A DNA stretch of 57,713 nucleotides from Candidatus Shapirobacteria bacterium CG_4_10_14_0_8_um_filter_39_15. GTDB lineage: Bacteria; Patescibacteriota; Microgenomatia; UM-FILTER-39-15. Each line of letters begins with the position of its first letter. Position 1 is the stretch's first letter. The DNA lies in the NCBI GenBank assembly GCA_002784465.1, contig PFLE01000011.1, positions 67,966-125,678 of the forward strand, in the 5' to 3' direction. Shown here piece by piece: positions 3,886 through 43,966 of the stretch. Position numbers and translations under genes: made by a program. The notes beneath the pieces were generated by a model. That model was not told where the DNA came from and did not search any database. It saw nothing but the letters and a program-made list of their open reading frames with translations.

Positions 3886-4281
3886 TTAATATACCACTAC
3901 TGGTTTATCGAATCTTAGATCAATACTTTTAGGCACTTTCCCTTCTATTTTAGATCGAGAAATAATAAATTGTAAAGAGGCAACCGAATATTTTAAGTCG
4001 GACGAGGCGGCTAACCGGACGGTTAAAGGACCAGGCAATGTTACGGTAATGGTATCTTTGTAATCCAAATTCTCCGGCGTGATTCCATATTCACCCAATA
4101 TTTTTTTAAATTCAGTTTCTTTTGAAGGATTTACTGCTGGATTTAGCTGACGACCCGGCCAATTAGGAAAAGAAATATCCTCTAGTTTTATGATTGTCAA
4201 AAGAATGATCGGGCTAAAGACAAACAGCAAAAGACTAAAGACTCTTTTTTTATTATTAGATTTATTTCTTGGCAATCTCAT
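3886..4281 (-). CDS. ftsQ: Short FtsQ/DivIB-like protein
   Basis: One N-terminal TM segment, 131 aa, C-terminal IDLRFDKPVVVY resembling the FtsQ C-terminus; located between murG and ftsA. Confidence 0.6.
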   Translation of the reverse strand: MRLPRNKSNNKKRVFSLLLFVFSPIILLTIIKLEDISFPNWPGRQLNPAVNPSKETEFKKILGEYGITPENLDYKDTITVTLPGPLTVRLAASSDLKYSVASLQFIISRSKIEGKVPKSIDLRFDKPVVVY

Positions 4282-5362
4282 TTAGGTTATTAACTAAAAT
4301 TTCGGCCGCATTCAATTTAATTAGCTTCTTGGCTTGACTGCCGTTTTGATGATATTGATCAATCTTTTCCATCATTTTGTTAATTTTTTCCAGCAAAGTT
4401 GATGAGGTTAAATCTTTTTGATAAAGAATCTCGGCAATTCCGATTTTTTTTAGCATCAAGGCGTTTTTTGTCTGTTCGTCCTGATAAGTCCAAGGGATTG
4501 GAATAAAAAGTGTCGGTTTACCCAAGGCTGCCACTTCGCAAACCGTATTAGCCCCAGCCCTGGAAACAATTAGATTCGCGTGATTCATTACCCAACCGAT
4601 TTGTTGTGAATTAATATAAGGAAATAATAAATAATTGGGTCCAAAATCTTTATTGAGTTTTTCGTAATCCAGCTCTCCGCACTGGTGAATAACGGCGTAC
4701 TTCTTTAGTAACTCAGGCAAACAACCAAGTACTGCATTATTAATCAGTCTTGATCCCTGATTTCCTCCCGTGATATAAATTATTGGCAATTTCGAATTTC
4801 GGATTTCGTTTACCCTGTAAGGGAATTTCGAATTTCGAATAAATATCTCCTGACGGATTGGATTACCAGTTAACACTACCTTATCTGCGGGGAAATGTTT
4901 CACTGAATCCGAAAATGAAACGGCTATTTTATTAACAAACAGGGAATTAATTTTTGACGATAAGCCAAAAGTGATCGTTTGTTCGTGAGTTAAAATCGGG
5001 ATGCGCAGAATCCAAGCAGAAAAAACGACTGGCACTGAAACGTATCCGCCAAAAGAACAAACAACATTTGGTTTGATTTTCCAAAGCCAGTAAAATGATT
5101 GAATCAGCCCCAAGGGAATCCGCAGCAAAGAAGGGATGGTGTAGCGGCTGAATTGTCTTTGCAACCGGCCAGTGGTTATGGAAATAAATGTCGCACCAAG
5201 TTCAGGAATCACTTTCGATTCAACCGAAGCGGTTTTATCACCTTCTAGGCTGTGTTTCCTACCAAAATAATAAATCTCCCAACCGCCCCCTTTTTTTAAC
5301 TCGGAAATAACCGCTTGAGCGGGTGTTAAATGTCCGCCGGTAATCACGATTTTTTTCATCAT
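4262..5362 (-). CDS. murG: UDP-GlcNAc:lipid I GlcNAc transferase MurG
   Basis: KKIVITGGHLTPAQAVI, HEQTITFGLSSKI, ITGGNQGSRLINNAV, SRAGANTVCEVAALGKPTLFIPIPW. Confidence 0.93.
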   Translation of the reverse strand: MMKKIVITGGHLTPAQAVISELKKGGGWEIYYFGRKHSLEGDKTASVESKVIPELGATFISITTGRLQRQFSRYTIPSLLRIPLGLIQSFYWLWKIKPNVVCSFGGYVSVPVVFSAWILRIPILTHEQTITFGLSSKINSLFVNKIAVSFSDSVKHFPADKVVLTGNPIRQEIFIRNSKFPYRVNEIRNSKLPIIYITGGNQGSRLINNAVLGCLPELLKKYAVIHQCGELDYEKLNKDFGPNYLLFPYINSQQIGWVMNHANLIVSRAGANTVCEVAALGKPTLFIPIPWTYQDEQTKNALMLKKIGIAEILYQKDLTSSTLLEKINKMMEKIDQYHQNGSQAKKLIKLNAAEILVNNLNEIAKK

Positions 5363-5372
5363 CTAAATTATA

Positions 5373-6461
5373 TCATTTAACAACTCTTTGCCGGGAAATA
5401 TTAAGAAGAATACCAATCCCCGCTAAATTAATCACCAGAGATGATCCGCCGTAAGAGACGAATGGCAGAGGAACACCGGTTAAAGGAATTAAGGAAACCA
5501 TGGCAGCTAAATTCACGACCATTTGAATTCCGATCCACGAAGTAATGCCAACCGCCAGCAGCTGGCCAAATCGGTCGGGTGTTTCCACGGCAATTTTAAA
5601 CCCTCGCCAGATAATAATCAAAAACAAACCAATTAAAACAAGCGCCCCGATAAAACCAAGCTCTTCCGCAATGACCGCAAAAATCGAGTCGGTGGTTGCT
5701 TCCGGCAGATATGCGTATTTTTGCCGGGAGGCACCGATTCCCACTCCGAATAATCCACCCGAACCTAAAGCCAATAAAATCTGGTGAAGGTGATAGGATG
5801 ATCCAAGAGGATCGCGATTCGGATCAAAAAAAGTCAATAATCTCGCCCGCCGATAAGAAGAACTGATAATCAAAATAATTCCTCCGATTAAACTGCTGGT
5901 AATAAAACCGATTAACGACAAAAGCGGGGCGCCGGAAACAAAATAAAGAATAAAACCGGTAATTGAAATAATTACGGCTGTTCCCAAGTCCGGCTCTAAG
6001 AGAATTAATAAATTAAGAAGGCCTAAAACAAATATTAACGGCAGGAATCTTGACTTGGAAGTAAAGACAGAGGACAAATATATTACCAAAGAAAGTTTTA
6101 CCAACTCGGCCGGTTGAAACCCGAAAAAGCCCAAATTAATCCACCGTCTGGCACCTAATAATTTTATCCCGATTCCCGGAACTAAAACTAAAATTAGAAA
6201 CCCAATGGTTGCTAAAATCAGGATCGGGGAAATTTTTCTCAAAACCTGATAATTGATTTTTGAAAAAATCGCTAGAGAAATAAAACCTATAATAATCCAA
6301 ATAATCTGCTGGCGAATATAATAATACTTATCACCAAAGTCCTGAAAAGCCGTTACCGAAGAAGCTTCGAAAATCATTAAGACCCCAAAAATTGACAAGG
6401 CAACGGTTAAATAAAAAAGGAGAATATCAATTCGTCTGATCTGGGGTTTGAGTTGAGCCAT
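5373..6461 (-). CDS. ftsW: FtsW, SEDS-family peptidoglycan polymerase
   Basis: GARRWINLGFFGFQPAELVKLSLVIYL, FAVIAEELGFIGA, PFVSYGGSSL. MAQLKPQIRR start at 6461, overlapping the mraY stop (TAATG). Confidence 0.95.
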   Translation of the reverse strand: MAQLKPQIRRIDILLFYLTVALSIFGVLMIFEASSVTAFQDFGDKYYYIRQQIIWIIIGFISLAIFSKINYQVLRKISPILILATIGFLILVLVPGIGIKLLGARRWINLGFFGFQPAELVKLSLVIYLSSVFTSKSRFLPLIFVLGLLNLLILLEPDLGTAVIISITGFILYFVSGAPLLSLIGFITSSLIGGIILIISSSYRRARLLTFFDPNRDPLGSSYHLHQILLALGSGGLFGVGIGASRQKYAYLPEATTDSIFAVIAEELGFIGALVLIGLFLIIIWRGFKIAVETPDRFGQLLAVGITSWIGIQMVVNLAAMVSLIPLTGVPLPFVSYGGSSLVINLAGIGILLNISRQRVVK

Positions 6462-39300: not shown

Positions 39301-39306
39301 ATTATA
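39301..39306 (-). promoter_or_regulatory. Putative -10 (TATAAT) 6 nt upstream of ATG at 39294
   Basis: Minus strand TATAAT-TTAATA-ATG. Confidence 0.45.
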
Positions 39307-40828
39307 ATATACCCCACGAATAAACACTAACCGGCCAATAACGGGGTTGCACTGAATATAATCTATCTACTTCCAGTTCCTTTTTTAAATTTTTATGGCT
39401 AAATTCCCTTATATCTTCCGGCACCTGATCATCCCAACTATCCAAAACTAATATACCCTTGGGATATCGTTTAATTATCCCATTAAGGCTCTCGAGATTA
39501 TTAACTATTTTAGCTCCCGAAAAAGTTTCGATTGTTTCGATATCAACTTTTCTTAAAATATAATCTAATTTCCCTTCTCCCAAATACCAAACAGGTAAAT
39601 CACTCCAGTTTGTAATCAGTACTGCTTTGGGGTTATCTTTCATTGTGTTTTCAACAAATCCATAAACCTTTTTCCAATCGACCTCCGGGATTTCCTGCAT
39701 ATCCGCGTTAAGCGAATATTCTTTTTGTGGCGAAAAAGAAATCTTATTAGACTTCCATAATGAAAAAACGACGACAAAAATCAGGATACCAGATACCAGA
39801 TACTGGATATTAGATGCTGGCCCCTGAACCCTTTTCCTAATATCAAATATCAAATATCCAATATCCATCATTCCATAGCTTGCCAACAAAATAATAAAAC
39901 CAAAAATAGGATAGAGATAGCGGGTGAACGGTTGAAAAAGAAAATAAGAAACAATCGGTGCTTGAATTAAGAAAATAAGCAAAAACATAGTAAGTTTTTG
40001 ATATTCTTTTTGCCAAAATAGGAATAATCCGCCAACAAAAGACAAAAAACAAAATGGTAAATAATTATGGGTCATAAAAACACGATAATAAAACAAATTA
40101 TTGGTTCTCCCGATTGAAGACAATATAGAAAAAATTTGAACTTTAAAAATTAAACCAAATAATACTAACAAAAATATCCCTAAAAACATCCATTTTTTTC
40201 CAAACCATGAAGCTTTAAAGATTAATAGATAGATAAAACCGGAGAAAAAAATGGTAAGACCTAAACCATGCATCAACGATGCGAAAACACTACACCCTAA
40301 AAAACCCAAAAAATAACGCCAATTGAATATTTTTTCTTTAGTCAACCTATAAATAAAATAAAACCCTAAAAGATAAAAAAATTGTAAAGCCTGATAGGGT
40401 CTTGCCTGACGGGAAAAGAGAATTTCGATATTCATAAAGGTTATAAAAAAGGTACTTAATAATCCCACCCTCCGGTTAAAAATTTCCTTTCCCAATAAAT
40501 AAATGACTAAAATCGTCAAAACACCAAAAAATACCGAAGGCAAGCGAATAGCAAATTCGTTTAAACCAAAAATACAAGCGGAGAGAGCACTTATCCAATA
40601 TTGCAACCATTGATAAACTCCGGTTGAATAACCATTGGTCAAAGCCGGTTGGCCTCTTTCTAAAATCGCTCGAACAAAAATAGCCACATGATTTTCATCG
40701 GTCCAGAATGAATAATTATTATCCAGTCCATAAATTCGATAATAGAAACCGAGAATTAAAAGAAAAAACAAAATGATATTGGATACTAGATATTTGATAT
40801 TGGATATTGAATCATGAATATTAGTCAT
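39302..40828 (-). CDS. GT39-like membrane glycosyltransferase
   Basis: Multi-TM; SFWTDENHVAIFVRAILERGQPALTNGYSTGVYQWLQYWISA; FSRQARPYQALQFFY. Confidence 0.82.
   Translation of the reverse strand: MTNIHDSISNIKYLVSNIILFFLLILGFYYRIYGLDNNYSFWTDENHVAIFVRAILERGQPALTNGYSTGVYQWLQYWISALSACIFGLNEFAIRLPSVFFGVLTILVIYLLGKEIFNRRVGLLSTFFITFMNIEILFSRQARPYQALQFFYLLGFYFIYRLTKEKIFNWRYFLGFLGCSVFASLMHGLGLTIFFSGFIYLLIFKASWFGKKWMFLGIFLLVLFGLIFKVQIFSILSSIGRTNNLFYYRVFMTHNYLPFCFLSFVGGLFLFWQKEYQKLTMFLLIFLIQAPIVSYFLFQPFTRYLYPIFGFIILLASYGMMDIGYLIFDIRKRVQGPASNIQYLVSGILIFVVVFSLWKSNKISFSPQKEYSLNADMQEIPEVDWKKVYGFVENTMKDNPKAVLITNWSDLPVWYLGEGKLDYILRKVDIETIETFSGAKIVNNLESLNGIIKRYPKGILVLDSWDDQVPEDIREFSHKNLKKELEVDRLYSVQPRYWPVSVYSWGIL
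39783..39866. repeat. ORF-less inverted pair of 7-bp arrays inside the GT39 CDS
   Basis: aggataccagataccagatactggatattagatg ... taatatcaaatatcaaatatccaatatcc, encoding MDIGYLIFDIRKRVQGPASNIQYLVSGIL. Confidence 0.75.
40775..40818. repeat. Left inverted array of four-helix-bundle element 2
   Basis: gatattggatactagatatttgatattggatattgaatc; 20-mer 40782-40801 is the perfect reverse complement of 41210-41229. Confidence 0.85.
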
Positions 40829-41205
40829 TTAGATTCGAAACCCTTGGTTTGATAATTGGATTTAATAAAAGCATTCAGGGAGAAATTTAAATCTTCCAAA
40901 AGATTAGATATGGAACTATAATCTTTTTCCGTAATTAAATCGCGATTTTTAAGTAGTTCCAGCCAGTGCAGAGATTCCAAAAGAGAACCTCTGGCATTAT
41001 AGTAGAATTTAATGCGGTCAAGATAGTGAAATCTTCCATACCCTTCGGCAATGTTCGCCCCGATCGAATCAATCGCCCTTATAAATTGATCACCAATTGT
41101 TTTTTTAACCTGCCAAGTGAAATTTTTATATATCTCCCAAGATTTATTACTTATAATCAATGCTTTTTGATAAATTTTTAAATCTTTTAATAAAATATGA
41201 TCCAT
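40825..41205 (-). CDS. Four helix bundle protein (S23/IVP-like)
   Basis: MDHILLKDLKIYQKALIISNKSWEIYKNFTWQVKKTIGDQFIRAIDSIGANIAEGYGRFHYLDRIKFYYNARGSLLES; ATG at 41205 preferred over TTG at 41217. Confidence 0.9.
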   Translation of the reverse strand: MDHILLKDLKIYQKALIISNKSWEIYKNFTWQVKKTIGDQFIRAIDSIGANIAEGYGRFHYLDRIKFYYNARGSLLESLHWLELLKNRDLITEKDYSSISNLLEDLNFSLNAFIKSNYQTKGFESK

Positions 41206-41209
41206 CTTT

Positions 41210-41243
41210 AATATCAAATATCTAGTATCTAGTATCTAATATC
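41210..41243. repeat. Right inverted array of four-helix-bundle element 2
   Basis: aatatcaaatatctagtatctagtatctaatatc (7-bp units). Confidence 0.85.
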
Positions 41244-41550
41244 TGTTTTCTTTTACATATTCAATAATCATTTGTATCACTCCAACTACCAAAAACATAT
41301 AGGCCCAGATAGCCGATTTTTCAGCGACCAAATCCTTTTTGAAAATCAGCAAAAAGGGGCACATCGTCAAAAATATTAATGCCCCAGCAATGGAAACTCT
41401 CCCTTTAAATTTGTAACGATAAGCCAATATAGTCCATAAACCAATAAGAAATAAAATCAGTAAATCGGAAGTAAATCTAAAAACAAAAATATCAAAAAAA
41501 ATACCAATTCCGGCGATAATTAATATCAAAAAATTTTTAATGTTTTCCAT
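41236..41550 (-). CDS. Small multi-TM hypothetical protein
   Basis: 104 aa, three or more hydrophobic segments. Confidence 0.55.
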   Translation of the reverse strand: MENIKNFLILIIAGIGIFFDIFVFRFTSDLLILFLIGLWTILAYRYKFKGRVSIAGALIFLTMCPFLLIFKKDLVAEKSAIWAYMFLVVGVIQMIIEYVKENRY

Positions 41551-41705: not shown

Positions 41706-41966
41706 TCATAAATTTTGGTAAAAATTTTCCAATCTTTTGTTAATAAATTTGTATCCCCATTGTCCCTTAAGATACTTCTCACGTCTTTTAGCGTCTTTCT
41801 TATCCAAACAAGCTTCGTAGTAAATCAACTTCAAGGGTATTCTGTGCCTTGTGGAAACGACTAATTTTCCACTATGCTCTTCTATCCTTCTCCTTAAATT
41901 ATCTGTATAGCCGATATATCTTTTGTTATCTTTCTCGCTCAATAAAATATAAACGTAATAAAACAT
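41706..41966 (-). CDS. GIY-YIG nuclease domain protein
   Basis: MFYYVYILLSEKDNKRYIGYTDNLRRRIEEHSGK...LIYYEACLDKKDAKRREKYLKG. Confidence 0.93.
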   Translation of the reverse strand: MFYYVYILLSEKDNKRYIGYTDNLRRRIEEHSGKLVVSTRHRIPLKLIYYEACLDKKDAKRREKYLKGQWGYKFINKRLENFYQNL

Positions 41967-41974
41967 CTTAAAAT

Positions 41975-43966
41975 TTATGAATTTCTTGCGACTTTTCTTC
42001 TCTTAATGTAATCATAACCTAAATACCCTAAACAGGAAAATAACGTCAAGCCACTAATAAATAAACCTAAATAGAAAAGTCGCTGGGGCCAAAATTCAAT
42101 GATAATCTCGTAATCTCTCTTACCACCAGCATCTTCGGGAGTAATATACCAAGAATTCGCGTATCCATTAACCAATAGGTGTCGATCTTCGGAAATTGCC
42201 TTCTTTCCCCAAGTTTCAAAGGTTGCTTTTTCTATAAATATATTTCGGTGAGTCCCTTCTTTAACTTCTCCATCAAAATAGCTCGCCACCGTCTCTCCAT
42301 AATTCTTTAATTCGTCATTTTTTAATCCGTTAATTTCGGAATCTGTTAATCCGTTAATATACAACTTCCATCCTTGATGAAAACTTTCGGAAAATACTAA
42401 GGTATAAGGGTCAACTGCACCCTCTATCTTAACCCGATATTTCGTCGGATTAATTCTAACAAATGTAATTTTTGGTACTACCTTGTCATAATTCGTTAAT
42501 CCGTTAATCTCTTTAATTTCTTTAATAGATTTGAGTATAATCTCCAGTTGATAAATTCTTTCAATCTTTAAGTTTTTAAATTCTACCTTACCGGAATTAT
42601 TGGAATTGGCAGGGGTATAAAAATAAATTTCTGCACCTAAAGTATTTTTGTCGGCTCTTAATATAACGTTAAACGTTTGCCATTCATCGTTTTTACCGTT
42701 TATCAATATTCTACTCAACACTTTCTCTTTTTTGATTACATCGTTTTCTTCTTTACGTTCGATCTTACTCTCCATGATTCCCACGCCTAAATGACTCTCT
42801 TTTACGGTATAGTCAAAACTCAAAGAATAAAGATTATTTGATTGCCAATTATTTATTTCTTGAAAAACAAGATTTTTGACATCTGGGAAAGGGTTCTGGG
42901 TAAATTCCACTCCTCCTTCTTTAACTTTTGTTTCCTCAAATTTCCGCCAATTTGTACCCACCAAATTATCCGATTCCGGCAAATTCAAAACTAATTGATC
43001 ATTACCTTCTTTAAATTCCCTTTCTCCCAGCTTTATCCAACCCCCATTTGTTTCAATTTTATCTCTGTTAATTTCTAGAGTATTTCCATTCATTCCTAAA
43101 TTCATTAACCCATCAATATTGCCAATAAACATTGAATAAGTCCCTTTCTTTGGTATTTTAAAACTATACTCTAAATTCCTTAAATCAAACGGTTCCAGTG
43201 CCTTGATTTCCCCATCCAATACCTCAAAAACTCTTTCCCAATCATTCTCGCTGGGTACGCCTTCAAATTTATCTTGATATATCTCTTCAATTTTTTCTTT
43301 ATGCCTCTCCCAATAAGCTCTTAATTTTATGGTCGACAAATCTCTCAACGCTTTAACCTTTGGCTTATCCAAATCCGTTAATTTCTCAATTTCTTTTACT
43401 GTTTCTTCCATCTTCTTTTGATAAATATCCAATATCCAATATTTAATATCTTTTTCTTTTCCCCATTTTTCGTATTCCGTTATTCTTTTTGAAGCAAAGT
43501 AAAGTTTTTTATCAATCAATTTTCCCGGATCTTTTCTTACCTTCCATTCCTCATATTTCTCTTTCAATCCCGCTAGTTTCCACCAAAAACTTCCCTGACT
43601 ATGCTTAACGTAAGGAAAAAACACGCTGTTTTTTAAGCTTTCCCTTTTCTCAATATCCAATATCAAATATCCAATATCCTTTTTTTCTCCTTTAATAAAA
43701 AATTCATCCGCCCTGTCTTTTAATCCATTAATTCTTGAATCTGTTAATCCGTTAATCGTGTCTAAATATATCCCCGATCTAATTTTGTAATCTTCAAACC
43801 CCAAAATATCAAGCAAATTTTTAGTATCTAAATTTGTATTAATTATGTTTTGAGGAATATAAAATAGAGGCAAGAAATAATCAGTAATCGCCTGCGCTCG
43901 TGAGTTAAAGAAAAAAAATGTAAAGAAAAAGAAGAAGATTATTGCAATTCTAAATATATTTCTCAT
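41975..43966 (-). CDS. Large hypothetical secreted/membrane protein with C-terminal TM (YfhO-like C-terminal features)
   Basis: N-terminal hydrophobic segment, ESFHQGWKLYING region, C-terminal TM plus basic tail; contains several repeat-encoded segments. Confidence 0.6.
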   Translation of the reverse strand: MRNIFRIAIIFFFFFTFFFFNSRAQAITDYFLPLFYIPQNIINTNLDTKNLLDILGFEDYKIRSGIYLDTINGLTDSRINGLKDRADEFFIKGEKKDIGYLILDIEKRESLKNSVFFPYVKHSQGSFWWKLAGLKEKYEEWKVRKDPGKLIDKKLYFASKRITEYEKWGKEKDIKYWILDIYQKKMEETVKEIEKLTDLDKPKVKALRDLSTIKLRAYWERHKEKIEEIYQDKFEGVPSENDWERVFEVLDGEIKALEPFDLRNLEYSFKIPKKGTYSMFIGNIDGLMNLGMNGNTLEINRDKIETNGGWIKLGEREFKEGNDQLVLNLPESDNLVGTNWRKFEETKVKEGGVEFTQNPFPDVKNLVFQEINNWQSNNLYSLSFDYTVKESHLGVGIMESKIERKEENDVIKKEKVLSRILINGKNDEWQTFNVILRADKNTLGAEIYFYTPANSNNSGKVEFKNLKIERIYQLEIILKSIKEIKEINGLTNYDKVVPKITFVRINPTKYRVKIEGAVDPYTLVFSESFHQGWKLYINGLTDSEINGLKNDELKNYGETVASYFDGEVKEGTHRNIFIEKATFETWGKKAISEDRHLLVNGYANSWYITPEDAGGKRDYEIIIEFWPQRLFYLGLFISGLTLFSCLGYLGYDYIKRRKVARNS

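Follow-up and report, generated by a model that had tools for sequence, protein, structure and literature searches.

An IVP/S23 gene between inverted arrays of 7-letter repeats as a likely copy of a selfish element with copy-specific repeat ends

In a stretch of 57,713 nucleotides of Candidatus Shapirobacteria bacterium CG_4_10_14_0_8_um_filter_39_15 (contig PFLE01000011.1, positions 67,966 to 125,678; the whole stretch is referred to as the window), a small ORF of the IVP/S23 family is present on the minus strand between an ORF encoding a membrane-like protein and a GT39-like glycosyltransferase ORF, and is enclosed by two inverted arrays of the heptamers GATATTT/GATACTA (Table 1). The IVP/S23 family has been known since the 1990s from insertions in ribosomal RNA genes. 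The encoded protein matches PF05635 with 91.2 bits (cut-off 33.8) and TIGR02436 with 88.7 bits (cut-off 24), and only PF05635 and TIGR02436-type families were matched. Its AlphaFold2 model (pLDDT 93.4) consists of four helices and is closest to the four-helix bundles of XCC0516 (2gsc, TM 0.86) and BT_0352 (2rld, TM 0.75), followed by Avd of diversity-generating retroelements (4dwl, TM 0.75-0.77, 12% identity). Over 166 sequences, Glu58 and Glu81 (numbering of the 130-aa form) are invariant (166/166) and Gln44, Arg47, Ser51, Asn55 and Ser78 are 92-98% conserved. The helix positions of the model put the first group on one face of helix 2, which suggests a conserved polar site, either catalytic or structural. 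No rRNA, Rfam or tRNA hits were found in the window.

Table 1. Coordinates of the element, its neighbours and related features in the window and elsewhere in the same genome (G000; positions preceded by a contig name C)
Position	Strand	Feature	Remarks
40825..41205	-	IVP/S23-family ORF, predicted four-helix bundle	126 aa from ATG; 130 aa from TTG at 41217; stop codon overlaps the ATG of the GT39 ORF (ATGA)
41210..41243	-	Arm upstream of the ORF	GATATTA GATACTA GATACTA GATATTT GATATT
40775..40818	-	Arm downstream of the ORF, inverted	Same heptamers in the same order of variants, one unit fewer; encodes residues SISNIKYLVSNI of the GT39 ORF
40782-40801 / 41210-41229		Perfect 20-bp inverted repeat within the arms
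39302..40828	-	GT39-like glycosyltransferase ORF	First ~16 codons come from the element; homologues in the genomes G056 and G014 align only from residue 17 and 14 on
41236..41550	-	Upstream neighbour, 104 aa, membrane-like	Stop codon (TAG) lies in the arm
39799..39866	-	ORF-less hairpin of the same heptamer, inserted in frame inside the GT39 gene	Two inverted arrays, short loop; a MITE-like relative
43424..43450	-	Solitary array of the same unit	Inside the 663-aa ORF
43651..43678	-	Second solitary array of the same unit	Inside the 663-aa ORF
43714-43760	-	INGLTDS-coding repeat (ATTAACGGATTAACAGATTC...) in the 663-aa ORF	8-bp unit of another IVP copy of this genome (C7:100338)
41706-41966		Free-standing GIY-YIG endonuclease ORF	Next to the element
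C5:20848-21165, C5:23326-23649		IVP elements inside insertions of the 16S rRNA gene	Outer parts look group-I-intron-like by eye
C5:60140-62163, C5:6047-7120, C18:24575-24862		Roughly 110-bp hairpin family (ATCAG.../CTGAT... units)	Flanks ArgS and other genes on both sides in inverted orientation; the IVP copy at C13:33036 has similar flanks
C7:7151-7919, C11:173-945, C19:75576-76356		Y1-transposase-like ORFs (MPYR...YHIFNRG)	Flanked by short palindromes; a RAYT-like system beside the IVP system

A sequence-only reading of the window had proposed this segment to be a free-standing relative of the rRNA intervening sequences, inserted among glycan genes, with arms that differ mainly by one 7-bp unit, encode part of the GT39 N-terminus and supply the stop codon of the upstream neighbour. 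The observations on the arms were confirmed. The motif GATATTNGATATTNGATA, allowing up to 2 mismatches, has 16 matches in the window whereas 0.16 are expected, and no shuffle reached 16. In the whole 816-kb genome, inverted pairs with a score >=16 and loops of 350-450 bp number 8, compared to 0 in one shuffled genome. The transcript is predicted to fold with the arms paired, with a z of -3.7 against shuffles. Two corrections are needed, as arrays of the same unit also occur alone, without an ORF and even inside coding sequence, and as processing of the transcript at the stem is predicted and not shown.

To get more insight into the generality of this architecture, we first mapped all PF05635 matches in the genome (97% complete) and found 14. 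Inspection of their flanks showed inverted arrays of 7-8 bp repeats around nearly all of them, with a different unit for almost every copy (TTAATCCG, CACTAGTA, AGTCTTT, CATAGTG, TTTTGAA, AACAGTA and others), and two copies lie inside the 16S rRNA gene. Hereafter, the 150 bp upstream of each ORF were scored against the reverse complement of the 150 bp downstream. A score >=16 was reached in 10 of 14 copies, compared to 52 of 867 other ORFs (6.0%) and 15 of 182 mismatched IVP pairs, and a score >=20 in 7 of 14 against 2.3%. In 87 copies from 33 related genomes, 75 reach 16 (mismatched pairs 10-12%, control ORFs in the same loci 5.6%) and 44 reach 20 (3% and 1.5%, respectively), and autocorrelation of these flanks peaks at lags 7, 14 and 21 (0.405, 0.370 and 0.347 upstream; 0.419, 0.377 and 0.343 downstream), against 0.26-0.29 in sequence 600-700 bp away. 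In 71 loci from many phyla and three groups of archaea, found with an XCC0516-led alignment, 46 (65%) reach 16 against 6% of mismatched pairs, with the same lag-7 peak; examples are GGTGAGT in Thiobacillus, TTTAGCG in Methanomicrobiales and ANME-1, and GGGAATC in Xanthomonadaceae. About 14% of the copies in relatives and 35% in the wide set show no arms at this threshold. The upstream arm is purine-rich on the sense strand in 92-93% of elements. The exact order of unit variants in both arms is not a general rule, since only 31% of elements clearly prefer one register. GIY-YIG genes do not appear to be a second cargo, as the genome has 8 copies of which at most one has flanking repeats, of another type. 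The other inverted repeats in this genome belong to the Y1-transposase palindromes or to the roughly 110-bp hairpin family of Table 1.

The arms come and go with the ORF. Genome G053 is of the same genus as genomes G016 and G037 but has no IVP. For most of the G016 and G037 copies examined, the flanks align to G053 with the element missing and no array left, and two of these copies occupy 16S helix 6, which in G053 is an ordinary short hairpin. The flanks are only about 70-90% identical, and at this distance no clear target-site duplication was seen. For the locus in the window, the homologues of the 104-aa ORF and of GT39 in the distant relative G056 (5606-5899 and 4087-5571) lie 34 bp apart on the same strand with no IVP between, as judged by coordinates only, and the GT39 alignment starts just where the arm-coded residues end. 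At four sites (loci L079/L080, L114/L121, L129/L163 and L164/L165) both G016 and G037 carry an IVP, but these pairs are non-orthologous, only 43-54% identical and have different units, which might point to insertion hot spots or replacement. Neither of the two observations that would have spoken against the sequence-only reading, i.e. no enrichment of inverted arrays around homologous ORFs or arms at orthologous loci lacking the ORF, was made, and its interpretation is supported. The general scope, the copy-specific units and the coupling of unit to protein lineage go beyond that reading.

This coupling was examined among 98 copies. Pairs from different genomes with less than 45% protein identity share units across arms (score >=20) in about 2% of cases, which rises to 12% (50-55% identity), 48% (60-65%), 60% (65-70%) and 75% (>70%); the Mantel r is 0.185 and none of 2000 permutations reached it. 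At these distances synonymous sites are saturated and dN/dS is 0.00-0.12, so an unselected arm should have lost its similarity. The coupling is not absolute. The protein nearest to the IVP of the window (L156 in genome G013, 59% identity) has a different though similar unit (GAAATTA), while a 29%-identical IVP (L110 in genome G036) has GATA-type arms; in the wider set, proteins 60-70% identical often differ in unit and close pairs are partly orthologous loci. L156 lies in the same gene neighbourhood, with homologues of the 104-aa ORF and GT39 on its contig, but at another position, which could reflect local hopping or transfer with the cluster.

Besides the element ends, ORF-less arrays of the same units are scattered through IVP-rich genomes. 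The genome of the window has 76 lag-7 and 36 lag-8 array segments compared to 0 and 1 in a shuffled genome; of 126 merged arrays most are not beside an IVP, and 25 have an inverted partner within 65 bp. The 663-aa ORF of the window is hit by arrays of two IVP lineages. The IVP-free genome G053 has 16 lag-7 segments, clustered at a few places. In sampled stretches, ten IVP-rich genomes have 11.6 and ten IVP-free genomes 1.0 lag-7/8 segments per 100 kb (Mann-Whitney p = 0.0017; small samples), although three genomes with many IVPs (G021, G046 and G010) had few or no arrays in the stretches sampled. In Xanthomonadaceae, GGGAATC arrays form the arms of the S23 gene between accB and accC. In Xanthomonas cucurbitae one IVP gene accompanies 244 GGGAATCx2 hits, whereas none occur in three unrelated genomes. 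The arrays lying about 400-500 bp apart in inverted orientation in three genomes (GGGAATC in G376 and G377, GGTGAGT in G378) enclose the IVP; the reversed-pattern control for GGTGAGT is uninformative because the reversed unit is a rotation of the same repeat.

Taken together, we consider it more likely than not, though far from certain, that the segment at about 40775-41243 is one copy of a small (about 0.4-0.6 kb) selfish mobile element, consisting of an IVP/S23 ORF between two inverted arrays of 7-8 bp repeats, of the same kind as the intervening sequences (IVS) of rRNA genes but not confined to rRNA. The unit is usually private to the copy and shared by its nearest protein relatives. We infer that the IVP protein, a pentameric ring in its solved relatives, recognises its own heptamer array in DNA or in the transcript and promotes spread or upkeep of elements and solitary arrays, much as RAYT proteins do for REP/REPIN sequences, and that in RNA the arms form a long stem that can be cut out of the host transcript, as known for rRNA IVSs, which would make insertion between co-transcribed genes or in rRNA loops tolerable. 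The chemistry, and that IVP itself does the moving, remain inferences. No transposition was observed, no known nuclease or recombinase domain is present, and in rRNA, published work on Coxiella suggests that the protein may not be expressed (PMC4990558). The 23S rRNA IVSs of Coxiella and Leptospira share the protein family, the complementary ends and a length of about 430 bp, and that of Coxiella even has three GACAGAT heptamers just upstream of the S23p start codon (PMC4990558). Here, however, the element lies between protein genes, its arms are degenerate heptamer arrays with copy-specific units, and ORF-less arrays are dispersed in the genome, which is not described there as a general feature. 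IVP ORFs in 16S and 23S insertions have been noted in a survey of CPR rRNA genes (PMC11270868). REP/REPIN systems would likewise combine one or few copies of a small gene flanked by short palindromic units with many ORF-less copies of the unit and a gene lineage coupled to repeat type, but RAYT is a Y1 (HUH) transposase whereas IVP is an unrelated four-helix bundle without that motif, and the units here are tandem 7-8-mers. Xanthomonas GGGAATC repeats were reported without explanation, without connection to an IVP gene and without a link to mobile elements (PMC4692102), and in the open-access literature searched we found no paper linking IVP genes to heptamer arrays in general.

A purely RNA-level intervening sequence, in which the arms matter only because they pair in the transcript and are cut by RNase III, the protein is a passenger and the heptamers arise by slippage that keeps both arms complementary, seems unlikely but cannot be dismissed. 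The Coxiella IVS has 28-bp terminal inverted repeats and is excised by RNase III (PMC4990558); the transcript of the window is predicted to fold with paired arms, and the G016 and G037 copies in 16S helix 6 read in the sense of the rRNA. Conversely, the protein is under strong purifying selection with seven near-invariant polar residues, the repeat unit tracks protein lineage, and dozens of ORF-less arrays accompany a single IVP gene. Moreover, neighbour orientation is close to the genome baseline and purely sense-oriented insertion is not supported, although the '--' arrangement was 0 of 77 in the CPR relatives against 9% of baseline genes.

Even less probable is that the arrays are host features (slippage-prone simple repeats, terminators or regulatory sites) into or beside which IVP ORFs merely insert. 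Polymerase slippage is the published explanation of bacterial heptamer repeats (cited in PMC4692102), most arrays in the genome of the window are not next to an IVP, and inverted arrays or array hairpins also flank a few ordinary genes such as ArgS. Yet the empty sites examined by sequence have no arrays, IVP-free genomes are nearly array-free, and both arms of a copy share one unit that differs from the next copy and follows the protein across genomes. We regard as very improbable, at least for this genome, that IVP acts as an Avd-like partner of a reverse transcriptase that writes the arrays; Avd is the next structural relative and gave a weak PHROG hit, but no PF00078 reverse transcriptase was found in this 97%-complete genome with 14 IVPs and over 100 arrays, and none was seen in the element.

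A more far-reaching possibility, which we put forward only tentatively, is that IVP/S23 proteins are the mobilising or array-building factors of a previously unrecognised class of prokaryotic repeat systems, found in both domains, in which each protein lineage propagates its own 7-8 bp tandem unit, as element ends and as hundreds of ORF-less arrays. This would explain the long-noted excess of heptamer repeats in bacterial genomes and give the S23 family a function. The family has had solved structures since 2006 but no known function, and heptamer repeats have been reported as unexplained in Xanthomonas (GGGAATC, the only one of the three considered here), Nostoc (GGGGA(C/T)T) and Beggiatoaceae (TAACTGA). 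Tying the two together gives a testable function, i.e. binding and propagation of its own array, turns scattered simple repeats into traces of one kind of mobile element, and predicts which repeat belongs to which protein.
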